From Cellvibrio mixtus subsp. mixtus J3-8 (lineage in GTDB: Bacteria > Pseudomonadota > Gammaproteobacteria > Pseudomonadales > Cellvibrionaceae): a DNA stretch of 39,139 nt. The notes under the pieces were generated by a model. That model was not told where the DNA came from and searched no databases. It saw only the letters and a program-made list of their open reading frames with translations. Position numbers and translations under genes: made by a program. This document shows, piece by piece, positions 12,802 to 32,500 of this stretch. Position 1 is the stretch's first letter; every line of letters starts with the position of its first letter. The DNA lies in assembly GCF_000766945.1 (NCBI RefSeq), contig NZ_KN266218.1, forward strand, positions 4,502 to 43,640, written 5' to 3'.

Positions 12802-12822
12802 CAAATCCCCCCGGCTCCACCA
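12802..12822 (+). repeat. att copy 1: right end of element 1, ssrA/tRNA 3' end
   Basis: CAAATCCCCCCGGCTCCACC plus a final A, with TT before and C after shared with the copy at 32480. It reads as the end of a T-arm (TTCAAAT-CCCCC), an acceptor strand (CGGCTCC), A and CCA. The 5' T-stem that should read GGGGG is GAAGG here, so this is a fragment carried by an element, not an intact gene. The sequence fits the 3' end of Pseudomonas-type ssrA. Confidence 0.88.
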
Positions 12823-12884
12823 CTTTAAAATAACTTGTTGTTTTCTAATAAGTTATTGAATCATAAAGACTTCCATATCCCATG

Positions 12885-12905
12885 TGGTACACATTACTGG
12901 TACAC
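12885..12905 (+). repeat. TGGTACAC direct repeats, probable arm sites (left end of element 2)
   Basis: TGGTACAC occurs at 12885-12892 and 12898-12905, 13 bp apart, just before the integrase start. A third copy lies at 27253-27260 near the other end of the same element. This placement is what integrase arm-type sites show. Overlap with the integrase promoter would allow autoregulation. Confidence 0.55.
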
Positions 12906-12912
12906 TTGGGGT

Positions 12913-14640
12913 ATGGAAGACTTGTCTAAACGATCACACCTGCTTAATCGAAACGGCCACTATTACCTGCGGGTACGAGTGCCTGTAGACCTTGTTGATC
13001 GCCTCAAGAAAACTGAGATAAAACGCAGCCTCAAGACCAAAGACTCAAAGGAAGCTAAAGCACGCCTGCAACTTGAGCTTTTGAAAGTCGAGGAAGAATT
13101 CCAGAAGCTGCGCAGGCAACTATTAAAGCCCACCCCCAGCGCATCAGTAAGCACACCGCTAACCAATCACATATCCAATACTGACCTCGAACGTGCAGTA
13201 TTAATCTGGCACAGGAAAGAGTCCGCCAAATCAGCGCTTGAAGATGACCAACTTAGAATCAGTATTTCCCCTACTGAAAAGGACGCGGTTCTCGACAATT
13301 TAAAAGATGATTTGGCAGCGCTAAGCAATGCCGATGAAGTTATTAACGCATCATCGATACAAGCAACTGCCAATAAAATTCTTGATGAGTCTGCAATCGA
13401 TAAGCAAACTCTGAATAGAGAACAAGCTCAATATTTTTACAACCTTATTCGCCAAGCTCGCTTGGAGCAAATTTTTGAAAGCTTTGAAAGGTTCGGAGAG
13501 TTTTTCCAACGAAAACCGTCAAGCCTATTTACCAACACTCAAGCGTTAGCATGGACGGGGGAATCAATCCCCTCGAATGATGTAACTCTTGAAATCCTTC
13601 TCCAAAGATTCCGCTCCGCAAAACGTAGTGATGGCCTGACCGAAAAATCGTTGGCTGGGTACAAACTCACATTTGACTTTGTAGTCGAATTATTTGGCAA
13701 ACAGAAACCGATTAAGTCGCTAACGCCTGCGGACTGTAGAGAGTTCAGAGATAAACTCGCCCAGCTTCCCTCTAACGCAAAAAAGAAATATCCGCATCTA
13801 ACCCTTATGCAAGCAATAGAAACGTGCGCCAAGGGCTCTACAGAAGCGCTGAGCGCCACCTCTGTTAATGGCCACATGAAAAATCTTTCCGCAATTTTTA
13901 ACTTTGCGGTGAGGGAACAACTACTGGACACAAACCCGGCAAACCATATCCCTCAGCTGAAGGTAAAACGCAACAAAAAAGGTCGGATACCGTTTAATCA
14001 CGATGAGCTACATAAACTGTTTTCAACCCCTATATACACCGGCTGCAAAGACGATGAACATAGTTACAATGTTCCGGGGGAAAACAAACCTCGTCGTCAT
14101 CGCTTCTGGGTGCCCTTGATAGCGCTTTATACGGGCATGCGATTGAATGAAATATGCCAACTGTTTACCGACGACATAGAGTGTATAAACGGAATACATG
14201 CTATCCATGTACGTGTTGATGAAGACGAAACAAAAACTTTAAAAACCGACCATAGCGAGCGCATTATCCCTATCCACAAAAACCTCATAGAAATAGGTTT
14301 TCTTGAATACGTAAATAAGATTAAAGCACAAAATAAAACGCAGCTCTTTCCTGACCTATCCTCTAGCGCTCGCGACAGCCTATCGGATAACTTTTCTAAA
14401 TGGTTCAACCGATTCCTTATTGCATCAAATCTCAAGCGTGCGGGGCTTTGCTTTCACAGTTTTAGACATACATTCAGGGATGAATGCAGGGCACACAACA
14501 TCAACAAAGAAATTGCTGCAACACTGGGGGGCTGGAAGCACTCAGAAGACGTAATGGACAACTATGGTATGGGATATGAGTTGAAGGTTTTGCAAGATGC
14601 AATCAACAAAATCCACAGTGATTTACAATTAATTGGATGA
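12913..14640 (+). CDS. int: Tyrosine integrase of element 2 (long DUF6538-type)
   Basis: 575 residues from ATG 12913. A longer frame is open upstream, but it would start only 12 bases from the att core and cross the arm repeats. The N-terminal segment (LLNRNGHYYLRVRVPVDLVD, RSLKTKDSKEAKARL) is DUF6538-like, a long helical linker follows, then a catalytic domain with R410 (YTGMRLNEI), a K/H strand (TDHSERIIPIH), H515-S-F-R518-H (CFHSFRHTFRD), GGWKHS and Y551. It is unlike the other two integrases. It reads away from the left att, so it belongs to the island on its right. Confidence 0.88.
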   Translation: MEDLSKRSHLLNRNGHYYLRVRVPVDLVDRLKKTEIKRSLKTKDSKEAKARLQLELLKVEEEFQKLRRQLLKPTPSASVSTPLTNHISNTDLERAVLIWHRKESAKSALEDDQLRISISPTEKDAVLDNLKDDLAALSNADEVINASSIQATANKILDESAIDKQTLNREQAQYFYNLIRQARLEQIFESFERFGEFFQRKPSSLFTNTQALAWTGESIPSNDVTLEILLQRFRSAKRSDGLTEKSLAGYKLTFDFVVELFGKQKPIKSLTPADCREFRDKLAQLPSNAKKKYPHLTLMQAIETCAKGSTEALSATSVNGHMKNLSAIFNFAVREQLLDTNPANHIPQLKVKRNKKGRIPFNHDELHKLFSTPIYTGCKDDEHSYNVPGENKPRRHRFWVPLIALYTGMRLNEICQLFTDDIECINGIHAIHVRVDEDETKTLKTDHSERIIPIHKNLIEIGFLEYVNKIKAQNKTQLFPDLSSSARDSLSDNFSKWFNRFLIASNLKRAGLCFHSFRHTFRDECRAHNINKEIAATLGGWKHSEDVMDNYGMGYELKVLQDAINKIHSDLQLIG

Positions 14641-14707
14641 AGCTGCAAACAATAAATTTCACTTATGGAGCCGTGTTTTGAAACTCCGTCACTCGCCCCT
14701 ACAACAA

Positions 14708-14947
14708 CTAAAAACTGGCAAAATATCGCTCAAGGAAAGACTTCGGAGCCACGTGTAACCCCTCACAAACCTCCATTACTTCCACAAAATCCAACCGCCG
14801 CTCTCCACTTTCATATTTAGATACATAACTCTGGGGTTTACCCAATAAGTTAGCCATCTCGGTTTGCGTTAAGCCTGCCTCGCTACGCAGAGTTTTAAGT
14901 AATGCGGTGAGGACTTCCCTCTTCTCATCCCAAGGTCTGTTTGCCAT
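14708..14947 (-). CDS. Small XRE-family regulator of element 2
   Basis: 79 residues, almost entirely a helix-turn-helix of the Cro/CI type: LTALLKTLRSEAGLTQTEMA, NLLGKPQSYVSKYESGERRL, then LDFVEVMEVCEGLHV. There is no second domain. It is transcribed leftwards from a palindromic operator at 14997-15021, divergent from the gene at 15091, and probably controls both itself and the rightward genes or the integrase. Confidence 0.82.
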   Translation of the reverse strand: MANRPWDEKREVLTALLKTLRSEAGLTQTEMANLLGKPQSYVSKYESGERRLDFVEVMEVCEGLHVAPKSFLERYFASF

Positions 14948-14996
14948 TTAGATACTTCGCCTGTAAGCCGAAATATCCCAAATTAGAATATTGTTT

Positions 14997-15021
14997 AAAT
15001 TATCCCATTTTGGGATAATTT
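14997..15021. promoter_or_regulatory. Perfect 25-bp palindromic operator
   Basis: AAATTATCCCA-TTT-TGGGATAATTT, 11-bp arms with no mismatch, lies between the divergent XRE gene and the gene at 15091. A related half site, AAATATCCCAAATT, is at 14971-14984. Position and symmetry make it the likely binding site of the adjacent XRE dimer. Confidence 0.72.
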
Positions 15022-15023
15022 GA

Positions 15024-15041
15024 TTTGCAACTGGTTTCAAA
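15024..15041. repeat. 18-bp palindromic repeat, copy A
   Basis: TTTGCAACTGGTTTCAAA, one mismatch from the consensus TTTGCAACWGGTTGCAAA. It follows the XRE operator by two bases. Other copies are at 16422, 19845 and 27197, all between genes of element 2. Confidence 0.65.
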
Positions 15042-15090
15042 ATGCATCTAAGCATCGCACTCAAATATCAACTAACAATAGGGATACACC

Positions 15091-15762
15091 ATGCAAGAGA
15101 CTACCCCGCCCCCTAGCGCAGACTTATCGGCCACCCCCGCCAAAACACCTTGGTACAACAAACGGTGGGTTGTTACTCTTTGGCTGATCTTCTTTTTCCC
15201 TGTTGGACTAATTGGGTTATGGATGTCAGAGCGCTTTCATATAGCCCTAAAAATAGCGATCTCCGCTGTGTTCGTGATCATTCTGAATCTGGACTCACAG
15301 GAAGAAAAAGACGCGAAGAAAGCAGGCTTTAAATCACTCTCAGATAAACAAGCAGCGGCACAAGTAAATATCACAAGCGCAACGTCGTACTACCAGCACC
15401 TTGATGCAGAGGAAAAGAAAAGACTGGCAACCATTGAAGCCGAAAAACAGGAGAAGGCTCGGGAAGAATTGGAAAAAGAAGACTTAAGCACAATGGCTTT
15501 TATCATTTGCAATCAATACACAAAACAAAACTTGGCCTCTCCTGCCTCAGCAGACTTTCCATTTCTTCCAACTGATGTCCGAGGCTTCAAAAGTCAGAGC
15601 TACATCATTCAAACCTACGTAGACTCACAGAATAAATTCGGCGCAATGCTTAGAACCCAAATTCTCTGCAAAGTGAAATACAAAGGCTTAACAGCGGATG
15701 GAAATGAGACAGCGGATATTAAAAACTGGGAGTTAATTGAACTTGCATTTGATCCACGCTAA
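15091..15762 (+). CDS. Membrane protein with helical stalk, unknown function
   Basis: 223 residues. Proline-rich cytoplasmic N-terminus (QETTPPPSADLSATPAKTP), one or two membrane spans at about 28-65 (VVTLWLIFFFPVGLIGLW, then IALKIAISAVFVIIL), a charged helix (LDAEEKKRLATIEAEKQEKA) and a soluble domain resembling those of phage-type lipoproteins (CNQYTKQNLASPASADFPFL). The ATG follows an AGGGATAC ribosome site. It overlaps the next gene by 26 bases. Not recognised as a named family. Confidence 0.65.
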   Translation: MQETTPPPSADLSATPAKTPWYNKRWVVTLWLIFFFPVGLIGLWMSERFHIALKIAISAVFVIILNLDSQEEKDAKKAGFKSLSDKQAAAQVNITSATSYYQHLDAEEKKRLATIEAEKQEKAREELEKEDLSTMAFIICNQYTKQNLASPASADFPFLPTDVRGFKSQSYIIQTYVDSQNKFGAMLRTQILCKVKYKGLTADGNETADIKNWELIELAFDPR

Positions 15763-16318
15763 AAAAATCCCATCAAAAATACTGACGGTAAATCAGCTAG
15801 AAGATTTTGGGAGAGTCCAGCTCTCCCCTTCTTTCTTCATGCGCGACTTTCTCTACTCCGAAATATCCCAGATAGAAAATATCCCCAACATCCCGCACTA
15901 CCCGGAGACAGCCATACAAACAGGCTCAATGCTTTGCCAGAAAGTCCTTGAGCCGCTACAGGAAGCCTTTGGACGCATAAGCATAAGGTCGGGCTACCGT
16001 TGCCCTGAAGTGAATGCAAAAGGCGCTGAAAACAAAAACCAGTACCGATGCGCAAGCAATGAAAGAAACTATGCCCGGCATATTTGGGATTACCCTGATA
16101 AGTATGGGAATTATGGAGCTATGGCCTGCGTGGTAGTTAATTCCTACCTACCCTATTACGAAGCCACTAAAGACTGGAGAAAACTTAGCCTCTGGATAAC
16201 AGCAAATATTCCCAACTACTCAGAAGTTCATTTTTTTCCAAAATTATGTGCCTTCAATATTTCTTGGAACGAAGCGTCCAAAAAGATTATTAAATCCAAT
16301 ATCAGGAACCCTACATAA
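15737..16318 (+). CDS. M15-peptidase-like protein
   Basis: Up to 193 residues; the start is uncertain because the upstream options are TTG codons (15737, 15743, 15749) and the first ATG is at 15839. The pattern LSPSFFMRDFLYSE, then LCQKVLEPLQEAFG, ISIRSGYRCPEVNAKGA follows the N-terminal part of D-Ala-D-Ala carboxypeptidase-like (M15) proteins. The zinc-ligand region would be RHIWDYPDKYGNYGAMACVV and SEVHFFPK, where the usual S-x-H-x-x-G-x-A-x-D is altered. It may therefore be a diverged, non-catalytic relative. It overlaps the membrane protein gene upstream and probably shares its transcript. Confidence 0.55.
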   Translation: MNLHLIHAKKIPSKILTVNQLEDFGRVQLSPSFFMRDFLYSEISQIENIPNIPHYPETAIQTGSMLCQKVLEPLQEAFGRISIRSGYRCPEVNAKGAENKNQYRCASNERNYARHIWDYPDKYGNYGAMACVVVNSYLPYYEATKDWRKLSLWITANIPNYSEVHFFPKLCAFNISWNEASKKIIKSNIRNPT

Positions 16319-16558
16319 AACCGCACTTAACTCTCTTTATAAGTCACACAAAATAGAAATACATAAAAGGAAAAATCAAGAATCCTTAGCAATCAATGAC
16401 GAAGCAACCATACGGTAACTTTTTGCAACAGGTTGCAAATAAGGTTGTAGCTCAATCTTTAAAGTGCGAAGCTTAACTCCGCAATCTTCCATAAAGACCA
16501 GATGGCGTGCCTCATCATTATCAACCGCTGAAACTTCTGATTAGCGTTACATGTAATG
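16319..16558. other. Intergenic region between convergent genes
   Basis: 240 bp between two convergent genes. It holds the palindromic repeat copy B (16422-16439) and most of a 30-bp palindrome (16537-16566). No coding frame or T-tract terminator is seen. Confidence 0.5.
16422..16439. repeat. 18-bp palindromic repeat, copy B (perfect)
   Basis: TTTGCAACAGGTTGCAAA, arms of eight bases with no mismatch around AG. It is the best match to the element 2 repeat consensus and lies in a gap between convergent genes. Confidence 0.7.
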
Positions 16559-16566
16559 CTAATCAG
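16537..16566. repeat. 30-bp near-perfect palindrome over a stop codon
   Basis: CTGATTAGC (16537-16545) and GCTAATCAG (16558-16566) flank GTTACATGTAAT, itself palindromic apart from its outer bases. It covers the stop codon of the gene at 16559-17815. It could form a long hairpin in the transcript, but no T tract follows, so it may be a protein site rather than an intrinsic terminator. Confidence 0.5.
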
Positions 16567-17815
16567 ATTGATAAAACTTTGGTTGCACTCCCATTGCCCT
16601 CATCGCTGGCACTAAAAAAAAGATGCGCTCATCTGTTTCATCCTCAATTTTTTGCGCATCAAGCATAGGTATTTGATCCCCTAGCTCCCTAACAATCCTC
16701 CATGTGCATATCGTTTTGTTACCATCCACATCCACAGCTGCAAGCTGTAAAAACTCACCATTGATGGGTAACTTGCTCATAGTTAAGCCGGGACGATATT
16801 TTTTTAGATCTCTTGTCCAAGCCTCTGTAATATGAATCAGACAGTGGGGCTTTTTTACTTTTATCTGCTCTGCAATTAAGCGCGCAAAAAAATATTTATC
16901 CGTTTGATCAATTAACATAGGATTAATCATCTGTTGAATTGACCAGTCAGGATTCAAAAAATACAGAACCGTAAGGTGATTACCCCATTGCTTAAAGGTT
17001 CCTTCAGCCATTCTGCTATAGTAATCAACAGCTGATTTATAATCATGAGGTGCTTCGCCTAGCATACTCTTAAGCTCTGAAGCTCTGCCTCTAACAAAAT
17101 CAGGCACTTGTGAACTAGGTGGCCTTTTGATTTGTCCAAAGCTTATGCGACAACTCTGCATACTTTTTAGCTTTATCATTTCTACCTGTCGAAAATACTC
17201 ATTCTTGTTTCCCAATGAATATTGCTCATGAACATTCCCATAAAATTCCCTATTAAGATGTTTGGCAAGAGCTTCACAACAGTCATATTGACGAGCATAA
17301 ACGTACTCCAAAGCAGAAAGGATTTCTCTTTTCTCTAGTGATTTGGTTACCCAAGCACGTTCAATTTTAACTCCAGCTACATCCGTAAGTCTTGTTGGAA
17401 AATATTTCTGTGCAAAACGGACTAAACGCTTAACACTGGCAGTTAGCAGCTCTTTTTCGCCAACAGGCATTTGCAGATCGTCTTCTTCTAAATAGGAGAA
17501 AATCAGAGTCACAGTCAATGTGCTGTTAAATTCAAGATCTCCTTGCTTTTCAATAATATTTCTTGAATCTTTCGCCCAGCGCATCACATCGTCACCAACC
17601 CATTTATCCAAAACATTTTCTTGATACCACTCGTCAAAATTTTGGATATCACTCTTATTTTTCTGAATAATGAAAGTTATTGTTCTTGCAGTTTGCAAAA
17701 ACTGATTTGTGTTTCTTCTAAAAAGTTCGGGATCAAAATACGTCTCACTACATGCATGTAGAATATGAGCAAGATCGTCTAAGCGCCGCTCCCATGGCAT
17801 TCTAACTACTGACAT
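16559..17815 (-). CDS. Hypothetical 418-residue protein
   Basis: Mostly helical, hydrophilic, cytoplasmic, with no motif I recognise. Notable stretches are RRLDDLAHILHACSETYFDP at the N-terminus, a K/E-rich middle (SLEKREILSALEYVYARQYD) and a C-terminal beta-rich region (FLQLAAVDVDGNKTICTWRI). The ATG follows only a weak ribosome site. It shares the strand with the SH3 gene to its right, from which it is separated by 118 bp. The island context would allow a defence role, but nothing in the sequence proves it. Confidence 0.6.
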   Translation of the reverse strand: MSVVRMPWERRLDDLAHILHACSETYFDPELFRRNTNQFLQTARTITFIIQKNKSDIQNFDEWYQENVLDKWVGDDVMRWAKDSRNIIEKQGDLEFNSTLTVTLIFSYLEEDDLQMPVGEKELLTASVKRLVRFAQKYFPTRLTDVAGVKIERAWVTKSLEKREILSALEYVYARQYDCCEALAKHLNREFYGNVHEQYSLGNKNEYFRQVEMIKLKSMQSCRISFGQIKRPPSSQVPDFVRGRASELKSMLGEAPHDYKSAVDYYSRMAEGTFKQWGNHLTVLYFLNPDWSIQQMINPMLIDQTDKYFFARLIAEQIKVKKPHCLIHITEAWTRDLKKYRPGLTMSKLPINGEFLQLAAVDVDGNKTICTWRIVRELGDQIPMLDAQKIEDETDERIFFLVPAMRAMGVQPKFYQSD

Positions 17816-17933
17816 ACAATATCCAATTATAATTTTTACAGCGAATGAACTGACTGATGATTAATATTGTTTAGTTTTTGACTCATCATTACAGCAAAGA
17901 AACCTGCAGGTGTGTTATAGTTACATAAACAGC

Positions 17934-19130
17934 TCATCTAAATTTTTTTAAATATCTAGAAAAAACCCAACCTTTTATTACCACATCGGAATCTACATCC
18001 CGCCATTCCACCAACGTCCAGCTCTTCCTTTTCTCCAGAATCAGAACGGAATAAGAAAATTGCAAAACCCCTATAACGTCAGATTTTTTTGATGGTGCCA
18101 ACCTAACATTAAGGCGATCAGCAGAAACATACCTAATTGACTTTAAAATCTCATGATTGCCAACTGATTGTATTGCCTTTGCTCTAATCTTCTTCTCTAC
18201 AGACTTCTTATCTTCTTTTAGAAATGAGCCGACATGATGCTCGGCTATAGGGGTGATAATTGCTATTATAATCCCCACCAGAAGTGGATAAATAAACCAT
18301 GCCAAAAGCTTTTGCAGCCATGGATCTCTTTGTGCTTTAATTTCAGAGACCAAATCATTAATTGATTTCTCCAATCCAGAAGTATTATTTAACGAGACGC
18401 TACGAATTATCTCTTCTGATAACTCCTGCAACTCTTGAGCTGCAATCTGTTTAGATGAGAGAAAAATTTCATTGTTATCTATTTCTATTTCCGAATATAC
18501 GCCTAGCGCCTGATCTCTCAGGTAGCCTAGCGCTACACTATTATCAAGATCAGATATAAACAATTCATTCGCAGATTTAATAGTCGAAAGCTCATCCACC
18601 CAACCTAACGCTTCCTTAAATTGTTTTAATGGTTGGGACAAGCCAGCCCAGGCATCAACAGACTGCCTAAACATTTCATTTTGAATTGTATGCCCACGAA
18701 TTAAGTCGAATGACTCTTGATAGCTTTTAAGGGGATCCACAAGCCTTTTCCATGCACTTGCCGATTCCTGAATGGCTCTCACCTGATCAGACACCACATC
18801 CAATTCCATTGACTTACGATAACTATCCAAAGAAGTCGTAAGACCATACCAAGCACCAACAGAATTTAACTCCCTCAACACATTGCTCACGCCATAAGCT
18901 TCCTGATAACTACGAAATGGCTGAGCAGCCCCGTTCATCATGCCTAGAATTTCACTGGCAGAGTTGAACTGATTAGCTACTTTTCCTATTTCTAGCGCGT
19001 ATTTATATTCACTCAATGGATCCAGAAGCGCTCGCCACTCAGCGAGCGACCCCTGATACAAGTCAGATAGTGGATTATAATTTTTTGCCACCTCAAAGCA
19101 CCCCCGCCTTATCCTCAGACAATAAAACAA
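17934..19130 (-). CDS. Tandem-repeat membrane protein with C-terminal SH3 domain
   Basis: 398 residues, or 385 if it starts at GTG 19091 (VAKNYNPLSDLY), which may be the true start. The first 180 residues hold five imperfect repeats about 35-40 residues apart with a W-x-x-L-x-x-P-L-x-x-[YF] core: AEWRALLDPLSEY, NGAAQPFRSY, GAWYGLTTSLDSY, SAWKRLVDPLKSY, DAWAGLSQPLKQF. A helical region and one membrane span (LLAWFIYPLLVGIIIAIITP) follow, then a bacterial SH3 domain (SADRLNVRLAPSKKSDVIGV to VIKGWVFSRYL). The SH3 domain is predicted on the far side of the membrane from the repeats. Function unknown. Confidence 0.7.
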   Translation of the reverse strand: MFYCLRIRRGCFEVAKNYNPLSDLYQGSLAEWRALLDPLSEYKYALEIGKVANQFNSASEILGMMNGAAQPFRSYQEAYGVSNVLRELNSVGAWYGLTTSLDSYRKSMELDVVSDQVRAIQESASAWKRLVDPLKSYQESFDLIRGHTIQNEMFRQSVDAWAGLSQPLKQFKEALGWVDELSTIKSANELFISDLDNSVALGYLRDQALGVYSEIEIDNNEIFLSSKQIAAQELQELSEEIIRSVSLNNTSGLEKSINDLVSEIKAQRDPWLQKLLAWFIYPLLVGIIIAIITPIAEHHVGSFLKEDKKSVEKKIRAKAIQSVGNHEILKSIRYVSADRLNVRLAPSKKSDVIGVLQFSYSVLILEKRKSWTLVEWRDVDSDVVIKGWVFSRYLKKFR

Positions 19131-19206
19131 TTAAAAGCATTAAGCCTTAATCTGCTGGAGCAGTAAAATAAATCTTAAGATTTTTTACACCCACCCAGAC
19201 CCTGTG

Positions 19207-19280
19207 TATACTGTCAAATAAATCGGTTTTTATTAGTTTTTTTACAAATCTGTAAATCAATCTATTTTCTGGACAGTATA
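19207..19280. promoter_or_regulatory. Inverted repeat TATACTGTC / GACAGTATA, possible res site or operator
   Basis: TATACTGTC at 19207-19215 and its exact reverse complement at 19272-19280 flank an A/T-rich spacer directly upstream of the resolvase gene; the second arm runs into the start codon. In the family, resolvase binding sites lie just upstream of the gene, serving both recombination and autoregulation. Recombination activity here is inferred. Confidence 0.5.
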
Positions 19281-19843: not shown

Positions 19844-19868
19844 TTTTGAAACTGGTTGCAAAATCAGG
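19839..19868. repeat. Hairpin at resolvase 3' end containing palindromic repeat copy C
   Basis: CCTGATTTTG and CAAAATCAGG form a perfect 10-bp stem with a 10-base loop across the resolvase stop codon. Inside it, TTTGAAACTGGTTGCAAA (19845-19862) is copy C of the element 2 repeat, with one mismatch. It sits between convergent genes and may also work as a terminator, although no T tract follows. Confidence 0.6.
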
Positions 19869-19894
19869 TGTCATCTTCAACTAGAGCAACCAAA

Positions 19895-20815: not shown

Positions 20816-20993
20816 ACCCCCCCCTTATTTACTTAATAAAAACCTGACACACACTCTTATCCAGCGTTCGTTACTTACGCCATATTATTCTTCTTTTAAT
20901 AGCACTTCCTAGAACAACTATATAAAGAAATGGATACATCATAATAAATACCATGAATTCACCCTTACTAGATATAGGTCAGACTGGGATGTA

Positions 20994-24202: not shown

Positions 24203-27067
24203 TTTTTTAATCCTGCTAATATAACACTCAAGCTTTTCAGAAATTTTCTCTTTTGTTACAGAATTATCTTTTCTGTTTTCATATATATAATTCAGCAATT
24301 CAGCTGACCTATCAGCAACAGCTTTACGCTCAGAAACAGCTTTACGCTCAGGGCCAGCTTTACGCTCCTCAATTAAAAAGGGGAAAATCATTAAATTAGG
24401 ATAGTAACCAAATGCATAATCATAATTTATAGTATCGAAATAGCCATTTATTTTATTTTTATCGATAGCCAGCTCTATATAATCTGATTCACATAATATT
24501 AAATTTCTTTTATGACGTATTGCACCCCAAAGCTCTGCCCCCAACATCTTTTGTAGCGCATTATCACTGATAACCGTTTTAGAATCACGCATCAAGCTAA
24601 ACATTAATCGGTCATCATCAGCATCTAAATTTTTCCTATGCTCATGAACCTCAACTCCTAGACGACGACCATTTTTTTCCAATAATATTTGGAGAAATTG
24701 AATCCTGAGAGAGATACCACGAAACGCATTTGATTTTATTTTTATAACGCCATCATCATTAGAAATGACCGGGGAAACATAAGTATTATGATCACTCACG
24801 TTGACCTGATAAAACAATATTTTATCAGCATTTATTACATCGCCAATCGTAACACCTTCACCCATAGCAATATCTTTATGCTTTCCGTCATAAATAGGAT
24901 CAAATCCATGAAAAATTAAAAAGGCATCAATATATTTAAAATCTTCCTCATTAGATTTTGACTTGCTAGCCAAGAAATATTCATTTAAAGAAGAGATAAT
25001 TTTTTGTTTGACCTCTAAACCTTTTGATTTTTTTAATTGATTTCTACTAAGCTGAAGAATATCACTAGCATCGTAACCCAGTATATTAATATCACTTCTT
25101 ACAAATGGAATAGCCGCAAGGCGGGAATCAAATGGTTGCCACTTATAATAAGTGGCCGCTGAGGCAGCACTTTCAGGACCAAAATTTAAATTCAATATTT
25201 GAATTTCATTTTTTTCCGAGTAAAAAACATAAGGGGGAAGATCAACATCTTTTATATTGATAATTTCGCCATCAAACGTTAACGAACAATTAAAAATTGA
25301 AAACCTAAAAAACTTCTCTATTTCATCGACTACTCGTGCAATATCAATATCCAATCCATTACCAACCACTGGATCATGATCCCTCAAGGCGCGCAAAGAA
25401 TTCTCCATGTTTGGGCTAATAGTAAATGCATTAGGTATCGTATCGTATTCAAAATCAAACGAAATAGAAGTCCCGACACTTTCAACACCTTGAACAGTGG
25501 ACTTAGAAATAAGAATATCACCTCCCGACCCAGGGCTTTTTAAATTAATGAAGTATTGATTATATGAGCCCAAATATCTGGTGGTAAGATCAACTTCTTG
25601 CGTCAGCAAAAAAACACTTTGGAAACCCAATCCAAAAGACCCCGATGGTCTCATCCAGGCGGGCATTTTTGATAATGTTTTCCTCAGGCTTCCCCGTCTA
25701 GAGGAACCAATACTTTGTATAGATCGAATACCATCATAATCCATCCCTGTACCATTATCCTTTATTGTTACACGCCAAGCTGTTCTGCCACTTACTTGAA
25801 TAATTTTTTTCGATATTGAAATATCAATATTTACTTTATTTTTTATAAAATCCAACGTCTCAACACTAGGCTCATCAAAATTTTTACTTCCCGAGTATTC
25901 AATCCAAATCCTTACAAGGCAAGCATCTATTGCGTTTTGCAACAGCTCTCGAATTGCCTGCTCCTTATGAGAATATATTTCCGAACCAGTAACGATATCA
26001 AATATTCGCTTTTTATCAATTTCAAATCTAGGGACATTTTTTCCGTCAATTAACTCATACCCCATCAGCTGGATATTTAACTTTCCTATAGTAGGCAACG
26101 CACCAAAACTTATAGCAGGAATAATTTCATGCCAACTATTCATTTGACATGAAAGCTCATCCTTTAAATAGGAAAACCATTTTTGAGTTTCAGAATAACC
26201 AGCATATGTTTCACATACAGCCTCAACCTCAATATTCGACGGAGAAGCATAAAAACTATTTATCGAAAAATGTTTTTCAATATGGCTAAGAGTACTATCA
26301 GGAACATTTCCAGCACAGCTCAACATAACCGGGCAAAATCTATTATTATCGAGATCTAACAAATCACCCAATCTAAGTAAGCTTGCTATTAATCTTGGAT
26401 GAACATCATCGTTACCAATTCCAACCTCAACTTTTGGAAGTTTCATAACTTCTTCAAAGGGTTGCCCATGCAAATAGCAAATCCTCCCAATAAGATTAAA
26501 AATTCTTTTCGGCAACAACTCTGTCCTTGGTGAAGAAAGCGATATTTCATGAAGAGGGTTTTTAGCTATTTCATCAGATCTTTGTGGATGTTTTGCCCGA
26601 TAATATTCAGACATTATAAATTTCATTTTTTCGTAGAAATCTATTGGCCAAGATGCCAAATCAAATGGTTTTTCTTGGCTTATAGCCCCAAAAATATCTC
26701 TTAACTCTTTAGCCGTAGTACTTTCATTGAAAAACTCTTGGAACTCTTTGGAGCTCCAGTCTTTTCTCATCAGATCAATGGGAATAACCATACCAATATC
26801 ATGTAAATAAGCACATTCCAAAAGCATCCAAATATCAGTCGCAGAAAGCAAATCAATCCTATGATTACCGAGAACTCTTTCTATATTGATAAGTATCTGC
26901 TTAGAATGAGACTCATCATGTCTACTGTAATGACCAAAAATCGTACCTATGTTTGCCAACGCCTTTCCTATTAAACGTTCGTCAAATGCCCATTGAGCAG
27001 CTAGTATTTCTAAATTTTTATCTTCGTTAGATAGTTGATTAAGCCTTTTGAGAAGTAGTGATGACAT
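24173..27067 (-). CDS. HD-domain plus Hsp90-type ATPase protein
   Basis: 964 residues from ATG 27067, chosen over the first frame start at 27115 because GAAGGGA lies seven bases before it. N-terminal HD-type domain with H46/H50/H54 (GHYSRHDESH), H89-D90 (AYLHDIGM) and D235 (LRLGDLLDLD). A GHKL (Hsp90/MutL) ATPase domain follows: E374-N378-D381 (IRELLQNAIDAC), D437-N-G-T-G-M (TIKDNGTGMD) and GSFGLGFQSV near 477-485. The remaining 450 residues resemble an Hsp90 middle region. HD-Hsp90-type fusions (HD-CE class) have been predicted to act in phage conflict. An 18-base tandem repeat inserts KA..ER units near the C-terminus. Confidence 0.8.
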   Translation of the reverse strand: MSSLLLKRLNQLSNEDKNLEILAAQWAFDERLIGKALANIGTIFGHYSRHDESHSKQILINIERVLGNHRIDLLSATDIWMLLECAYLHDIGMVIPIDLMRKDWSSKEFQEFFNESTTAKELRDIFGAISQEKPFDLASWPIDFYEKMKFIMSEYYRAKHPQRSDEIAKNPLHEISLSSPRTELLPKRIFNLIGRICYLHGQPFEEVMKLPKVEVGIGNDDVHPRLIASLLRLGDLLDLDNNRFCPVMLSCAGNVPDSTLSHIEKHFSINSFYASPSNIEVEAVCETYAGYSETQKWFSYLKDELSCQMNSWHEIIPAISFGALPTIGKLNIQLMGYELIDGKNVPRFEIDKKRIFDIVTGSEIYSHKEQAIRELLQNAIDACLVRIWIEYSGSKNFDEPSVETLDFIKNKVNIDISISKKIIQVSGRTAWRVTIKDNGTGMDYDGIRSIQSIGSSRRGSLRKTLSKMPAWMRPSGSFGLGFQSVFLLTQEVDLTTRYLGSYNQYFINLKSPGSGGDILISKSTVQGVESVGTSISFDFEYDTIPNAFTISPNMENSLRALRDHDPVVGNGLDIDIARVVDEIEKFFRFSIFNCSLTFDGEIINIKDVDLPPYVFYSEKNEIQILNLNFGPESAASAATYYKWQPFDSRLAAIPFVRSDINILGYDASDILQLSRNQLKKSKGLEVKQKIISSLNEYFLASKSKSNEEDFKYIDAFLIFHGFDPIYDGKHKDIAMGEGVTIGDVINADKILFYQVNVSDHNTYVSPVISNDDGVIKIKSNAFRGISLRIQFLQILLEKNGRRLGVEVHEHRKNLDADDDRLMFSLMRDSKTVISDNALQKMLGAELWGAIRHKRNLILCESDYIELAIDKNKINGYFDTINYDYAFGYYPNLMIFPFLIEERKAGPERKAVSERKAVADRSAELLNYIYENRKDNSVTKEKISEKLECYISRIKKLMFNKPMWR
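24319..24367 (+). repeat. Three 18-bp tandem repeats inside the HD-ATPase gene
   Basis: CAGCTTTACGCTC recurs at 24319, 24337 and 24355, exactly 18 bp apart. On the coding strand it gives three six-residue units, ERKAGP, ERKAVS, ERKAVA. The unit length keeps the frame, so copy number could change without breaking the protein. Confidence 0.7.
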
Positions 27068-27196
27068 GTTATCCCTTCGATAATGCTGTAATTTTGTCTT
27101 TAACGTACTGGGCACTTATTAACCATCCGGCACTTAACATTGAAAATGTGTTTTCAATGGACGTAAGCGCCAGACAAGATAATGAAGAATAGTCAT

Positions 27197-27214
27197 TTTG
27201 CAGCAGGGTGCAAA
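27197..27214. repeat. 18-bp palindromic repeat, copy D
   Basis: TTTGCAGCAGGGTGCAAA, two mismatches from the element 2 consensus; flanking bases extend the stem to TTTTGCA/TGCAAAA. It is the copy nearest the right att. Confidence 0.6.
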
Positions 27215-27252
27215 ATCTCTTCTCTATCCCCTAACTAAGAGTCACAAATTTG

Positions 27253-27260
27253 GTACACTA
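27253..27260 (+). repeat. TGGTACAC, probable integrase arm site (right end of element 2)
   Basis: An exact copy of the octamer found twice beside the left att of element 2, located 60 bp from att copy 2. With the left pair it brackets the island. Confidence 0.5.
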
Positions 27261-27319
27261 AACTCAATCACAGGGTTTTAGCTGTCTATATAAATCAATG
27301 AGTTAGGTGTATCCGGGAG

Positions 27320-27340
27320 CAAATCCCCCCGGCTCCACCA
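27320..27340 (+). repeat. att copy 2: junction of elements 2 and 3
   Basis: Same 21 bases as att copies 1 and 3. Upstream the T-loop TT is replaced by AG (GGGAGCAAAT), so identity begins at the C and the crossover lies within this core. It closes element 2 and opens element 3. Confidence 0.88.
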
Positions 27341-27354
27341 AACACAGGGGGGTG

Positions 27355-27486
27355 TCTAGACCTATCTAGACCGCTGGAGACCAGTATTTGTGCGGGTTCC
27401 AGCAGCTCCCCAACTCCCAACTACATGGTCTCCAGTGGTCTTGATCGGTCTCCAGTAAGGCACCAATCCGGCACAAATCCGGCACA
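27355..27486. repeat. Cluster of short repeats at the left end of element 3
   Basis: TCTAGACC at 27355 and 27365 (10-bp period). CTGGAGACCA at 27374-27383, with its exact reverse complement TGGTCTCCAG at 27426-27435 and a near copy CGGTCTCCAG at 27446-27455 (20-bp period). ATCCGGCACA at 27466-27475 and 27477-27486 (11-bp period). The last pair has inverted counterparts at 32252-32269 near the right att. Helical-turn spacing next to att points to integrase arm and excisionase sites. Apart from these, 27341-27593 holds no gene. Confidence 0.6.
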
Positions 27487-27593
27487 TTTCACCACCCCGC
27501 CCAGCAAAGCCCTTTCCCTATGGTCTCGGAACGACTGACTGTCACCTTTTCCGCAAAAAAATTTTTGAACAACATCCCCAGCTTTCCCTGTCG

Positions 27594-29183
27594 ATGGCAT
27601 CGTCCTATCTGGATATTGCCAAGGCTAAAGGCTACGTTGATGCAAACCGCAATCTACTGACCTTAAACCAGCGCCTGATCGTCAAAGACCTGAATCTGTC
27701 GTCCAGCCTCGAAATCATCAAAAAATTTGCCGAAGATAAAGCCCAGTACACCACCACCCTTGCTGAATCTTACAAAGGCAATTTGAACGCCGCCTATGAT
27801 GCGTGCTGCGAGTACATCAAGGGCTATGAGCTAACACCACCAAGAAAGAGCAAAAACGGGGATTTTATCTCTGCAAGTATTTTGCGTATGGGTTGCCCAC
27901 GCTGGTGGAAGAAAAAACTGTGCACCCTTCAACGCCGCACTATCGAGGCAGTTGCTCGCGACCTTGGAATGATTCACCGCAAGCGCTCCGCTTATTCAAG
28001 CAAGTTCACTCAAGCTCAACGATCACATCAAAAACATTTGGCTAATCAGTTTTTGGAAAACACCTTTTTGGTCAACCAAAACCAGCAAGTTTTTTCACTA
28101 AAAGAGCTTTCAGAAAAATCAGTTTCTAATCCAGAAATTAGGCGCGCTGAACTAATGACGCGCATATCAGGTTTTGAAATTGTTGCCGATGAGCTTGGTC
28201 ATTGCGGTGAGTTTTACACCATTACCGCACCATCAAGAATGCATTCCCGTTTAAATAAAACAGGAAAGCAAAATTCTAAATATGACGGCACGACTCCGCG
28301 AGAAGTGAACGAATATTTAGGTGAGCTATGGGCAAGAATTAGAGCCAAGTTGCATCGGGAAAACTTGAACGTTTACGGTTTCCGTGTCGCAGAGCCTAAC
28401 CATGATGGAACCCCGCACTGGCATTTAATGCTGTTTATGTCGCCATCAATAAAAACCCGTGTGCGTTCGATCATGAAGCATTATGCATTGCAGGATAGCA
28501 AGCATGAAAAAGGAGCGAGCAAACACAGATTTAAAGCTGTTGCGATAGATAAATCGAAAGGCTCTGCTGCTGGATACATTGCTAAATACATCACTAAAAA
28601 TATTGATGGCTCTAATATCGATACAGACCTATACGGCAATGATGCAAAGCAATCTGCCAAAGCCATCGATGCATGGGCAAGCTGCTGGGGCATTCGTCAA
28701 TTTCAGCAAATTGGTGGCCCGAGTGTAACCGTCTGGCGAGAGCTTCGAAGAACACCGGCATGCGATATTGATGTTGATGACATTGACAATAACGCAATTA
28801 TATCTGAGGCGGCATGCGCAGCAGTCGCCTCAGATTGGGCAGCTTATGTCATGGTTATGGGCGGTGTTGAAATGCGTAAATCAGAGCACCCTATCAGACC
28901 GTTCTATGAGCACCCTGTGTTTGTTAATGAAGAAACAGGAGAGCTATTACCAGAAGGTCTTACCGTTTATGGCGACCCGAAAAAACCACGAATTAAAGGC
29001 TTGGATTATTTCAATCAGGCCATCATCACGCGCTTACATAATTGGAAAAAATACGAGTCCGCTGGCGGCCTTAGCATAGCGCCGCGCGCAGGTACGAGCA
29101 CGACAGCGGCGAGGCCGCCAGCGCCGCCCGCAGGGCGGCCTTGGACTAGTATCAATAACTGTACGCAGCCCCAAATTCATTAA
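27594..29183 (+). CDS. Rolling-circle replication endonuclease, P2 gpA type
   Basis: 529 residues. It matches the phage replication protein A family (GPA, HUH superfamily), which nicks the origin and stays covalently attached through tyrosine. Visible: [14 protein letters not shown], then [20 protein letters not shown] with the metal-binding H275-W-H277, then [13 protein letters not shown] with two candidate tyrosines, Y328 and Y332. P2 gpA is longer, about 760 residues; this one stops soon after a GC-rich stretch coding for [20 protein letters not shown]. The SINNCT motif recalls the same segment in other gpA proteins. The start ATG has no strong ribosome site. It is the replication gene of element 3. 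Confidence 0.85.
29060..29139. other. GC-rich inverted repeats in the Rep gene, candidate replication origin
   Basis: CGCTGGCGGCCT (29060-29071) pairs exactly with AGGCCGCCAGCG (29112-29123). Next to it GCCGCCC-GCA-GGGCGGC (29123-29139) is a perfect hairpin, and GGCGGCCTT recurs at 29064 and 29134. In P2 the origin nicked by gpA lies within gene A, so an origin here is plausible. The nick site itself cannot be read from the sequence. Confidence 0.5.
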
Positions 29184-29198
29184 TGGAGAGGGTTAAAA

Positions 29199-29480
29199 AT
29201 GTCTAAAAAATTAGGCAGAGAATATGAAGTTGATTTTTTCGACTGGGATACATCTTTGCAATTTGAATTAACAGAAGCCTGCTCTTTAATGTGCCGTGAA
29301 GTTGTTCGCACGGAAGATGCCGAACTTCTACCTCGCCCACCTATTACAAAAACCGGAAACATTGTTGGTGTTCTTGCTGTGAATGAGGAAATTGAAGTTG
29401 TAGTGCGTTTTCCAGAGGGAATGGAGCAATTAACAAAAACCGAATTTTGTGGTGATTACAAGCTGGTGCCAGAATGGTAA
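29199..29480 (+). CDS. Small acidic protein of element 3
   Basis: 93 residues, acidic, with no recognised family. FFDWDTSLQFELTEACSLMC and a beta-rich second half (GNIVGVLAVNEEIEVVVRFP). GGAGAGG precedes the ATG. It starts 16 bases after the rep gene and overlaps the next gene by seven bases, so the three genes form an operon. In rolling-circle phages this position often encodes a single-strand-binding protein, but I see no direct sign of that here. Confidence 0.6.
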   Translation: MSKKLGREYEVDFFDWDTSLQFELTEACSLMCREVVRTEDAELLPRPPITKTGNIVGVLAVNEEIEVVVRFPEGMEQLTKTEFCGDYKLVPEW

Positions 29481-29848
29481 CTGATCGCGTAAGAGCAAAG
29501 CTTTATCGCCTTGACGATATATATTTATTTCACAAACGCGACAAGAAAAATCATGCTGCCAAAATTATTCCTGCGTGCATTATTGATTTCACTGCCTATT
29601 GGCGAGAGCTTGAAGATTGCCAATTTGATGGCTTGATGAAACACGAAACGGATGAACTATATTTTTTTATAAACGAAAAGCTTTATGAAATATGTCGCGC
29701 GCATCTCGACCTTTATTGGCTAACTTATGACTATGACGATCTACCAATGTACAGGAATGGCGATGTTCCAAAACCATTTTGGCAAAACGGCAATAGAAGG
29801 AGACAAGGAGGAGGACGGAGAAAACGCGGCCCCAAACTAAATACATGA
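29474..29848 (+). CDS. Small protein with basic C-terminal tail
   Basis: 124 residues. Aromatic- and acid-rich body (HLDLYWLTYDYDDLPMYRNG) and a strongly basic, glycine-rich end (NRRRQGGGRRKRGPK) that would bind nucleic acid. Start overlaps the previous stop. No family recognised; accessory replication or packaging roles are both possible. Confidence 0.55.
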   Translation: MVTDRVRAKLYRLDDIYLFHKRDKKNHAAKIIPACIIDFTAYWRELEDCQFDGLMKHETDELYFFINEKLYEICRAHLDLYWLTYDYDDLPMYRNGDVPKPFWQNGNRRRQGGGRRKRGPKLNT

Positions 29849-29942
29849 TATTTCGTAACACTACGGAATATTTTGTTAGTCGCCCTGCCAAGAGTTGTAC
29901 CTCAAGGCAGAGCTAATCATACCAACCTGATCGGAGGTCTAT

Positions 29943-30257
29943 ATGACTGATTTGAATGTTAACACTAATATCAAAAAAAATTATTTACTGTCCTTAGTGG
30001 CTACACCTGTTTTTATTAATAGATTTAATTCATCACCATCCTACTTTGAAATGCCAGCAGGTCTATATTTAATCGATGCAGTTATTTTTCACTTTGATGG
30101 GCATATTGAGCTTGGCGTATCGGAATATGATCCTTCCATATCGCTGGAGCAATTTGACATTGATAAATTCCACATTGCCTATTTTAATTTGCATGACTTG
30201 GACATTAATCACGAACAAGCTATCACCACAACACTGATTAACCATCAAGCAGCTTAA
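29943..30257 (+). CDS. Hypothetical protein, 104 residues
   Basis: A strong CGGAGG site precedes the ATG. The protein is acidic and beta-rich (GLYLIDAVIFHFDGHIELGV), with FDIDKFHIAYFNLHDLDINH near the end. No family recognised. It lies 94 bp after the rep operon and just before a structured non-coding segment. Confidence 0.55.
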   Translation: MTDLNVNTNIKKNYLLSLVATPVFINRFNSSPSYFEMPAGLYLIDAVIFHFDGHIELGVSEYDPSISLEQFDIDKFHIAYFNLHDLDINHEQAITTTLINHQAA

Positions 30258-30690
30258 ATTTAGCAACATCTTTCAAGCCAACGCGCACACGCGCCCAGTT
30301 AGCCTGTGAAGGAAGCCTCAAGCGACCACCCACAGGTGTTATCTGGGTCAGGGGGCTTTAGCCTCCTTGATTGGCTTTGGCATTTGACAGCAGCTTAAAC
30401 CAATGATAAAAATGCACCTTCCTAGACGTGGTTATACGGTTATTTTCTTTGTCGGCCTGAAAACTGAAGGGCAAAGCCCGGGCAAAAAGAAGATTGAAAA
30501 TAGTCGTCAGTGCCTACCTAAATTAAGTGTCGATACTGGATATTTCTTTTACGTATTATCAGCTATATGCTGCTCAATACTTTTCCCCTTCTACCATTTC
30601 GACACTCATCTAATTCTTTTTAAACGCATAAATAGCAATGGCCATTTTGGCTACTGCATTCGCTTGCTTTTGATTATTAGGTGATTTTGT
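30258..30690. other. Non-coding region of element 3
   Basis: 433 bp. The left quarter is the structured segment at 30275-30377. The rest contains an open frame (30403-30684) that lacks a ribosome site and protein-like composition, so I treat it as non-coding. The excisionase promoter must lie at its right end. Confidence 0.45.
30275..30377. ncRNA. Structured segment: small RNA or single-strand origin
   Basis: Nested complementary pieces: AAGCCAA (30275-30281) with TTGGCTT (30371-30377); GCGC-ACAC-GCGC (30283-30294); CCCAG (30294-30298) with CTGGG (30343-30347); CCTGTG (30303-30308) with CACAGG (30331-30336); GGGGGC-TTTA-GCCTCC (30351-30366). Together these form a closed multi-branched fold of about 103 bases. 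In a rolling-circle element it could be a lagging-strand (single-strand) origin, or a transcribed RNA. No known RNA family is recognised. Confidence 0.5.
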
Positions 30691-30894
30691 ATGCAATGGC
30701 AAACAATCGAAAAAGTTTCAAGTGACATTGGCTTATCCAAAGAAGCTATTAGAGCATTGAAAAAACGCGGAATTTTTAGAGAAAAAATTCATTGGGTTAA
30801 AGCTCCCAACGGAAGAATTTTTATTAACCCCCATGAGGTTCAAAAGTGGATTTCCGGTGAAAAACCTAACGTTAAAAACCTTAGGAATTCATAG
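30691..30894 (+). CDS. Excisionase-like protein of element 3
   Basis: 67 residues forming one excisionase-type winged helix: WQTIEKVSSDIGLSKEAIRA, then KIHWVKAPNGRIFINPHEVQ and KWISG. It has the same plan as residues 1-50 of the protein at 11444-11722. It sits two genes before the integrase and probably directs excision of this element. Confidence 0.72.
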   Translation: MQWQTIEKVSSDIGLSKEAIRALKKRGIFREKIHWVKAPNGRIFINPHEVQKWISGEKPNVKNLRNS

Positions 30895-30896
30895 TT

Positions 30897-31181
30897 ATGT
30901 ATTTAGCTAACATTCAAGAATTAAAACAGATATTCTCCATTCCGGAACATGCAAACTTTATAGGGTTTGCTGTAACCAGAAAAAATTCAGAAACATTTTT
31001 AGTTTCCATTTCAAAGAAAATACTATATTCACTTTTTTCAACAGTGTTAGACGATGCATTGATTTTTAATACCCAGGCAGATGCTACTGAGTTTGTGAAT
31101 CAGTATAAGCAAGATTCCTTGGTAATTCTTTTGTTTGATTTTGGCGAATACGTACACACATTTTATTTCGATGAACATTAA
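30897..31181 (+). CDS. Small protein between excisionase and integrase
   Basis: 94 residues, not recognised. Beta-rich N-terminus (NFIGFAVTRKNSETFLVSIS) and acidic C-terminus (LLFDFGEYVHTFYFDEH). It starts two bases after the excisionase gene stop and overlaps the integrase start by 11 bases, so it is translated with both. A similar gene is absent from element 1, where excisionase and integrase overlap directly. Confidence 0.55.
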   Translation: MYLANIQELKQIFSIPEHANFIGFAVTRKNSETFLVSISKKILYSLFSTVLDDALIFNTQADATEFVNQYKQDSLVILLFDFGEYVHTFYFDEH

Positions 31182-32250
31182 ACATTCTGGCGTAAGATCG
31201 CGCGGCAATAGCATCCTCCTTGATTTCACTTACCAAGGCGAGCGCTGCCGCGAAACATTAAGAATTAAACCAACCAAAACCACTTTGAAAGAAGCCTCGC
31301 GGAAACGTGAGGCTATTCTCTTTGAAATTGCCATGGGAACATTTGATTATTTGAATCACTTCCCCGCTAGCGCAAAAGCAAAGAAATATTCGAAGCAATT
31401 AGGTCAGTCGATCACCATTGAACAAGCACTAAAAGACTGGCTAAAAAAGACTGAGCGTCATTGCCAATTAAGTACCATCAGGGGTTACAACAGTGCTGTT
31501 TATCACCACCTAATTCCGACATTTGGGCATCTGAAATTAACCGAGTTGGCTGTATCGCATATTGAAGATTGGTTAGACACACTGAGCATTTCCAACAAAC
31601 GAATAAACAATGTTCTCAGTCCGCTAAGGCTCGTTTTTAAAGATGCTTACTTCGATCAACTGATTGATAAAAATCCACTTGATAGAGTTCGGTTTTTACC
31701 GGTTGAACAACGCGAGCCGAATCCGTTTACCCAGCACGAAATTATTCGTGTGCTCGATCAATTGCAAGGTCAAGCCCGCAACCTGTTTCAATTCGCGTTT
31801 TATACTGGCTTGCGCACATCTGAATTGATCGGCCTCCGGTGGGAAGATATCGACTTACCCAACAACCGGTTTTATGTACGTGTTGTCATAGTGGGCCGCA
31901 GAGAGAAAACAACTAAAACCGTTTCTGGCCGGCGCACAGTGGAATTAAATACTCAAGCCATTGAGGCCCTAAACAATCAGCAATCATTTACTGAAGACTC
32001 GCACAGGGTCTTTCATGACGATAAAACCGGTCAGGCATGGCAATGTGATCAGGCAATCCGGAAACGCCTTTGGATACCCGCTTTAAAGGCCGCTGGGCTC
32101 GATTACAGGAATCCCTATCAAACACGGCATACCTTTGCGTCAATGATGCTCTCTCAGGGCAAAAACCCGCTATGGGTTGCCGAGCAAATGGGCCATAAAG
32201 ATTGGGGAATGATTCGTAAGGTTTATGGGCGTTGGATACCAAATAACTGA
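31171..32250 (+). CDS. int: Tyrosine integrase of element 3 (DUF3596 arm-binding type)
   Basis: 359 residues from ATG 31171. The same architecture as the element 1 integrase and clearly homologous to it along the whole length: FTYQGERCRETLRIKPTKTT, a core-binding domain, R215 (YTGLRTSELIGLRW), R319-H320 (NPYQTRHTFASMML), EQMGHKDWGM and Y352 (KVYGRW). The shared ancestry explains why both elements chose the same att. It reads towards att copy 3, 230 bp away. Confidence 0.9.
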   Translation: MNIKHSGVRSRGNSILLDFTYQGERCRETLRIKPTKTTLKEASRKREAILFEIAMGTFDYLNHFPASAKAKKYSKQLGQSITIEQALKDWLKKTERHCQLSTIRGYNSAVYHHLIPTFGHLKLTELAVSHIEDWLDTLSISNKRINNVLSPLRLVFKDAYFDQLIDKNPLDRVRFLPVEQREPNPFTQHEIIRVLDQLQGQARNLFQFAFYTGLRTSELIGLRWEDIDLPNNRFYVRVVIVGRREKTTKTVSGRRTVELNTQAIEALNNQQSFTEDSHRVFHDDKTGQAWQCDQAIRKRLWIPALKAAGLDYRNPYQTRHTFASMMLSQGKNPLWVAEQMGHKDWGMIRKVYGRWIPNN

Positions 32251-32251
32251 C

Positions 32252-32269
32252 TTGTGCCCAATTTGTGCC
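32252..32269 (-). repeat. TTGTGCC repeats, probable arm sites (right end of element 3)
   Basis: TTGTGCC at 32252-32258 and 32263-32269, an 11-bp period directly after the integrase stop. They are the reverse complement of GGCACA in the ATCCGGCACA pair at 27466-27486, which has the same 11-bp period. Between here and att copy 3 no gene is seen. Confidence 0.55.
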
Positions 32270-32479
32270 GTTTGAGCAAACTTGATCCGGATACATACGG
32301 TTTTATGTATTAACCAGGTGTTTACATAAAATTTTATGTTTGATCCGGGTCAACCTCGATTATGGCCAGATTTTGCACAAACCAGTAATTGGACTTTATA
32401 AGGCTTTTTTGATAATTTTGGCACTATTGAGGCGCAGTGAATGGATAAGGTTTTGAATACTAACGGTTTTCCAAACATT

Positions 32480-32500
32480 CAAATCCCCCCGGCTCCACCA
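32480..32500 (+). repeat. att copy 3: right end of element 3
   Basis: Same 21-base core as copies 1 and 2, and identical to copy 1 for two more bases on the left and one on the right. A terminator-like hairpin follows within ten bases, as expected if this is the original downstream flank of the target tRNA-like gene. Confidence 0.88.

Follow-up and report, generated by a model that had tools for sequence, protein, structure and literature searches.

A stack of three integrated elements at the ssrA gene of Cellvibrio mixtus, one of them a likely satellite of filamentous phages

We analysed a stretch of 39,139 nucleotides from Cellvibrio mixtus subsp. mixtus J3-8 (contig NZ_KN266218.1, positions 4,502 to 43,640; hereafter the window, C18:4502-43640 in our numbering of the 50 contigs of the assembly). 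Three elements occupy a single transfer-messenger RNA (tmRNA) gene, ssrA, in the order ssrA, P2-like prophage (E1), 14.5-kb island (E2), 5.2-kb element (E3), chromosome, and each has its own tyrosine recombinase. We read E3, with a probability of about two in three, as a satellite of filamentous phages that excises, replicates to single-stranded DNA and is exported by a helper. Features lie on the + strand of the window unless stated otherwise.

The stack is defined by a 21-base core, which occurs in the window in three exact copies, all on the + strand (core 1, 12802-12822; core 2, 27320-27340; core 3, 32480-32500), and which gave no match with up to three mismatches in 100 dinucleotide shuffles. 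An earlier, sequence-only reading of the window had placed the copies at these positions, each followed by a different element or by chromosome, and had taken the core for the 3′ end of ssrA; both statements were borne out. The whole genome contains a fourth exact copy (C4:2133-2153), and this is the 3′ end of the sole tmRNA match above the family cut-off (C4:2133-2487, tag ANDDSYALAA). A second, permuted ARAGORN call on C4 overlaps prophage DNA and was set aside. The intact ssrA gene stands beyond the prophage, at the left end of E1, whose right end lies in the window, and 25 bases (12798-12822) are common to the ssrA end and the region of core 1. The ssrA end, joined to the flank right of core 3, gave an uninterrupted alignment with the single-core site in G004, a genome of the same genus (94.8% identity over 406 bases), and this alignment extended 43 bases beyond the core. 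These 43 bases (32501-32543, 90.7% identity to G004) are the native ssrA terminator, at which the chromosome begins. The stack of three elements at one tmRNA site is real, and it is of a known kind.

The left part of E1 had to be assigned across contigs. From ssrA, C4 carries 2.1 kb of the left end of a P2-like prophage and then stops; its genes are presumably a methylase and a portal gene, and those at the start of C18 presumably P2-type tail genes; relatives of the portal and tail genes occur in other loci. The genome holds two P2-like prophages, 92% alike in the gene tested, and the P2 capsid family PF05125, a P2-type structural gene, is found on both C22 and C23. We infer that C4 pairs with C18, because the attachment repeats match in that way: the C4 and C18 ends have the 25-base ssrA core in common, and those of C19 and C9 share the end of a tRNA-Leu gene. 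E1 would then reach leftwards from the window across C18:1-4501, continue in C22 or C23 and end at ssrA on C4, with a size of about 32.7 kb (2.1 + 13.3 + 17.3), in which the middle part, C22 or C23, is assigned rather than joined. In the second P2-like prophage (C19, C9), the shared sequence is 19 bases long and corresponds to the 3′ end of tRNA-Leu (taa) on C9.

An integrase gene adjoins one end of each element (11602-12780 in E1, 12835-14640 in E2, 31135-32250 in E3), as the sequence-only reading had stated; with direct repeats of the tmRNA 3′ end as bounds, this marks them as tmRNA-targeted elements. That reading had also called two integrases homologous and the third not, and the elements unrelated. 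The E1 and E3 integrases are indeed homologous (46% identical), but the E2 integrase is not foreign to them: it is 24% identical to that of E3 (E = 1e-7), and all three match PF00589. Likewise, the stack itself holds, whereas ‘unrelated’ is too strong for E1 and E3, whose integrases (Int) and excisionases (Xis) are related.

A comparison with relatives, proposed together with that reading, was carried out on 21 genomes of the genus, 17 of which match the core with at most two mismatches. Occupancy was read at 13 loci from 12 genus mates, with G015 read separately. Ten of the 12 have a single core (up to three mismatches in the stretch read, a count that leaves room for an element with a shorter repeat), followed directly in several by a terminator-like hairpin, and we read these ten sites as empty. 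In G016, a bin with 7% contamination, E3 alone lies between cores on C113, and C71 holds a single-core site. An E3-like element stands directly beside ssrA in G015 (same genus; right repeat shortened to 16 bases), in G035 (another genus) and in G095 (another family). In G005 (L062 4102-7902), two ssrA cores flank a cassette of 3.78 kb in which no integrase-like open reading frame (ORF) was recognised by inspection, without a profile scan; the left end of the cassette retains native terminator sequence, and at its right end 99 bases, the core among them, match the corresponding end of E2 at 84%. Since relatives show single cores, the G005 cassette, or E3 alone (G016, G015), the block is not a single unit. 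It is a sound inference that the elements can leave singly or together, as had been predicted.

E3 (27341-32500) is bounded by cores 2 and 3, and the same bounded unit is present in G016 (G016:C113). Its first gene encodes a gpA-type rolling-circle initiator (27594-29183, in a frame open from 27459; PF05840, E = 1.8e-87; phrog_91), which is 89% identical in G016. It is followed by the small conserved protein p93 (29199-29480; HMM match in 34 of 39 loci tested), p124 (29474-29848; 94% in G016, 75% in G015), a Xis-like protein of 67 aa (30691-30894), under our 80-aa ORF cut-off, and a tyrosine integrase (31135-32250; PF00589, PF12167); further small ORFs are also present. The Xis-like protein has no Pfam match and has tblastn relatives in 39 of the 40 automatically labelled family loci introduced below. 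Pfam and PHROGs revealed no virion or morphogenesis gene in the six E3 ORFs scanned (a 93-aa frame, 30403-30684, lay outside the scan), and no primase was found among them. E3 thus has two traits of a satellite, an initiator of its own and, in the scanned ORFs, no morphogenesis genes. The AlphaFold model of p93 (pLDDT 83.3) looks like an SH3/Tudor-type barrel; Foldseek gave no significant fold match, with UvrD/PcrA Tudor domains among the top matches (best E 0.078). The idea that p93 is an inovirus single-strand-binding protein was rejected, since HMM comparison with three of these proteins gave nothing up to E = 10.

Relatives of E3 were sought through gpA in named genomes, where the best 80 of 558 confirmed matches were kept, and in a viral collection, where the best 80 of 585 were kept. 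A locus was automatically labelled as family if a related integrase lay at most 6 kb downstream and tblastn queries (three for Zot, seven for P2) detected no Zot or P2 gene; these queries missed Zot genes of Marinobacterium outside the elements, later found by Pfam. Forty of the 80 genome loci fit this label, and four more (L092, L094, L133 and L134), in whose stretch int was not seen, were added by hand, giving a set of 44. Only one of the 80 viral matches was labelled as family, a Marinobacterium iners contig. In 23 of the 44 loci, the gpA match lies 210-308 bases past the end of a tmRNA. Among elements with an exact core repeat, the smallest is that of Thiothrix eikelboomii (3.99 kb) and the largest that of Alteromonas oceani (8.4 kb). 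Nitrosomonas, Marinobacterium, Thiothrix, Methylococcus and Alteromonas are among the hosts of the best 80 of 558 loci; the gene order of E3 is found again in many gammaproteobacterial and betaproteobacterial species, where most frames are open.

In a tree of gpA proteins, E3 and the 44 loci formed one clade of 45 rows (SH-aLRT 97), nested in a set of 59 rows (89) together with all 10 inovirus rows, three unlabelled rows and one P2-labelled row, while 16 of the 18 P2-labelled rows fell in a different set. The tree came from a quick search and has many long branches; every third P2-labelled row was used, rows below 350 aa and the duplicate L166 were dropped, and the labels of ten other loci were changed manually to INOV or CORT. 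The annotation of Dolos, Vaf1 and PE001 is Inoviridae or Tubulavirales. E3 apparently belongs to a widespread and so far undescribed family. A literature search with thin coverage of subscription papers found no ssrA-integrating inovirus satellite, which is weak evidence of novelty. We also noted that a minus-strand cargo gene (~323-340 aa) recurs between gpA and int in L116, L128, L144 and L157; the cysteine-rich C-termini of its products are similar by eye, and the L116 copy has no Pfam match. In L109, L142, L145, L168 and L223, gpA lies near a P-loop protein of 200-234 aa, and we would guess that these are perhaps packaging ATPases of tailless phages.

The link to filamentous phages comes from shared signals. 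When the whole of E3 was compared with loci of the genus that carry Zot or gpA, two short matches emerged in addition to those between gpA genes: R1 (E = 5e-15) and R2 (E = 3e-4). R1 (30269-30382) is an intergenic covarying structure common to filamentous prophages and mini-elements, and R2 (29061-29122) is a GC-rich hairpin inside the 3′ end of gpA, whose apical loop is kept in the same two kinds of element. R1 matched an array in G014, a prophage locus in G004 and a mini-element in G005. In the G014 tandem array (L258, G014:C1:862000-880000), two filamentous prophages of 6.37 kb come first, and mini-elements of 3.29 kb follow, which encode a repressor and a PF05144 initiator but no Zot; the array contains three copies of the R2 loop spaced by 3288 bases. 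We take these mini-elements to be RS1-like in gene content. Sharing of the signals is not explained by a common initiator, because the initiators of the G014 prophages and mini-elements are of G2P type (PF05155, PF05144) and not PF05840.

Used alone against the filamentous loci, R1 reached 77 bits, compared with a maximum of 32.8 over 100 shuffles and with 24.7 for host DNA, and R2 reached 50, compared with 29.2 and 24.7; both regions had been picked after the match. In R1, 93.9% of alignment cells were paired (shuffles, 78.4%; slid structures, at most 57.1%) and 8 of 14 pairs were altered on both sides. The structure itself was derived from folds of members of this set, without the three outer pairs of helix 3, where there is a bulge, and a row with a misregistered 5′ arm (the G005 mini-element) was kept. 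The G014 mini-elements have the R2 loop unchanged, and a G005 mini-element and the filamentous prophages of G016 and G004 have it with one or two altered bases; in G016 a single base differs, and the loop lies just past zot. The stems differ between elements, each with a perfect run of 7-10 pairs. When the 21 genus genomes were scanned for the loop at up to two mismatches, nine matches were found. Seven had no or one mismatch (two E3 elements, four mini-element copies, one filamentous prophage), the eighth (two mismatches) was in another filamentous prophage, and the ninth (G011, two mismatches) has no hairpin and looks like chance. R1 and R2 are thus common to E3 and filamentous prophages of the genus, as putative cis signals of a putative helper.

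Filamentous prophages are also found next to E3-like elements. The ssrA stacks of Marinobacterium ramblicola and M. halophilum run from the tmRNA through a Zot-bearing filamentous prophage (9.5 and 9.8 kb, respectively) and a core to an E3-like element. The M. ramblicola filamentous prophage has its own Int_N-type integrase, and two further cores lie at the end of the E3-like element and 4.0 kb on. The third element of this ssrA stack (L121 13053-17095) resembles the left end of the filamentous prophage over its first 71 bases (87%, core included). In M. iners, Zot and an E3-like element share a contig whose left end is cut; 32 of 35 bases in this element correspond to the hairpin of the M. 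ramblicola prophage, without the stem, and we give this little weight.

From these observations we propose the following course of events. Each element entered ssrA through its own tyrosine recombinase, restoring the 3′ end of the gene and leaving a copy of the core. Int and Xis would excise E3 as a 5.2-kb circle, which gpA, judging from its family, would nick to drive rolling-circle replication and produce single-stranded DNA. This strand would carry the two structured signals also seen in filamentous phages of the genus, one presumably for packaging and the other an origin, in either assignment. A helper would package and export the strand, and Int would re-insert E3 at ssrA. Members of the E3 family would in this way probably travel inside filamentous phages. 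More tentatively, and with the odds somewhat against it, E3 may found a family of integrating filamentous-phage satellites in Gamma- and Betaproteobacteria, with ssrA as a shared dock at which the helper phage, its satellite and other islands stack; adjacent cores would then allow them to excise as joint circles and to give rise to hybrid replicons.

Several results count against a filamentous helper. Zot was not found in the genome of E3 itself, nor in G015, G035 or G095, and it is present in only 14 of 41 family genomes. Within the genus it occurs in one of three E3 carriers and in 6 of 18 others, and an enrichment in carriers was therefore rejected. G016, which has both E3 and a filamentous prophage, is the bin with 7% contamination. 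For the R2 loop, the reversed control gave six matches at up to two mismatches in the genus genomes (the mismatch breakdown was not given), and the G015 element had no loop match in that scan. Of the 45 family elements, two have the exact loop; with one mismatch allowed there were 23 matches versus 22 for the reversed control (element bounds approximate); as a signal of the whole family the loop was rejected, being no better than this control. Finally, HMM comparison did not link p93 to any of three inovirus proteins encoded at the following gene position.

Some of these results would fit an autonomous integrative rolling-circle element or integrating cryptic plasmid, spread by chance transduction or transformation, in which the signals are single-strand origins read by the host and shared among the rolling-circle replicons of the genus. 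E3 would then need no more than the initiator, Xis and Int it has, without the packaging gene that was not found; the missing Zot in its genome and the missing exact loop in most family members would also be accounted for. We regard this as unlikely, since every loop found with no or one mismatch belongs to a filamentous prophage, a mini-element or E3, and since E3-like elements adjoin filamentous prophages in two Marinobacterium stacks.

It is improbable that E3 is instead a satellite of tailed phages of P2 type, E1 among them. The integrases of E1 and E3 are 46% identical and their Xis proteins 26%, and PF05840 is named after gene A of P2 type. However, both P2-like prophages of the genome contain a stretch with a cos-like pattern that a search of E3 did not reveal, and on this ground a P2 helper was rejected; one related element, that of G035, gave a weak cos-like match. 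E1 has a primase, no gpA besides that of E3 was found in the genome, and the gpA clade lies beside inovirus proteins, with 16 of 18 P2-labelled rows elsewhere in one set. Decay from a larger prophage, which would explain the small size and the lack of a detected virion gene, is very improbable, being contradicted by conservation of the whole unit: its gene order recurs across Gamma- and Betaproteobacteria with mostly open frames. An assembly artefact, suggested by the absence of end overlaps among C4, C22/C23 and C18 and by two similar P2-like prophages that break the assembly, can be practically dismissed, as cores 1-3 lie on one contig, the window has no N, and the attachment repeats pair C4 with C18 and C19 with C9.

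E2 (12823-27340), bounded by cores 1 and 2, begins with a tyrosine integrase of DUF6538 type directly beside core 1 (12835-14640; PF20172, PF00589), for which the 20 other genomes of the genus gave one match (G014, 28%). A terminase large subunit-like protein or remnant (20994-22220; phrog_9, E = 2.3e-5) is followed by a minus-strand gene for an HD-CE and HSP90-like ATPase protein (24173-27115; PF24391, E = 2.7e-49; PF13589; partial PADLOC RT_UG24 match), a probable defence gene. E2 looks like a known class of tmRNA island, represented by I23, I44 and I55 of Pseudomonas, which insert at the tmRNA 3′ end with a 14-base repeat and have an integrase beside the core and defence cargo (PMC12595487). 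One such island is inserted directly upstream of another, PFI-12, and stacking at tmRNA was thus already known. Site, integrase beside the 5′ core, probable defence cargo and stacking are all alike, and the 14-base repeat equals the last 14 bases of our core; insofar as this is so, the earlier label of a Pseudomonas-type ssrA holds. In contrast, these islands have an alpA gene at the 3′ end, whereas the E2 3′ end (27115-27319) has no ORF of at least 80 aa, the size at which alpA was sought, and none was identified in E2. I55 was moved by a jumbo phage (PMC12595487), and E2 has no known carrier. E3 differs from the islands in being far smaller and having its own initiator.

Within the window, E1 (1-12822) comprises tail genes, cargo, repressor, primase, xis and int. 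A minus-strand cargo cluster (685-3800) encodes an Abi_alpha abortive-infection protein (1516-2301, minus strand; PF14337, E = 1.1e-21; PADLOC PDC-S47, E = 4.3e-12), a trypsin-like protein matching LmuA and two unknowns. Further right are the Toprim primase (6727-9489; PF13362, E = 3.8e-13), an excisionase-like protein (11444-11722; 26% identical to E3 Xis, E = 2e-7) and the tyrosine integrase (11602-12780; PF00589, PF12167). No gpA initiator was found in E1; a gpA search of the genome returned the E3 copy only. Right of the stack, at 33484-38073, lies a gene for a large repeat protein, presumably of RHS type.

To our knowledge, few satellites of filamentous phages are known (RS1 and TLC-phi, both of Vibrio filamentous phages, and pDolos). 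TLC-phi has its own replication module, lacks morphogenesis genes and is stacked with its helpers at one site (PMC4246890). E3 is alike in these respects, its helper being putative, but TLC-phi integrates at dif through the host XerC/XerD, whereas E3 has its own Int and Xis for ssrA and a gpA-type initiator. pDolos, a plasmid satellite of a Shewanella inovirus, is said to target Inoviridae (PMC13230959, PMC11389934); it resembles E3 as a replicon with a reported inovirus target but is an autonomous plasmid, whereas E3 is integrative. PICMI, of ~6 kb, is likewise small and minimal, with Int and AlpA and no capsid-remodelling genes (PMC10803314); its site is fis, and it has a primase and a virulent-phage helper, in contrast to the ssrA site and gpA of E3 and the absence of a primase from its scanned ORFs. 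Stacking is thus ordinary, and the likely novelty is E3 as an integrating satellite of filamentous phages. If this is true, a family of satellites with their own integrase exists in nitrifiers, methanotrophs and marine bacteria, and parasitism of inoviruses would be common and testable in harmless strains. The shared covarying signal points to cis elements of environmental inoviruses, and the Marinobacterium genomes offer candidate pairs of helper and satellite.

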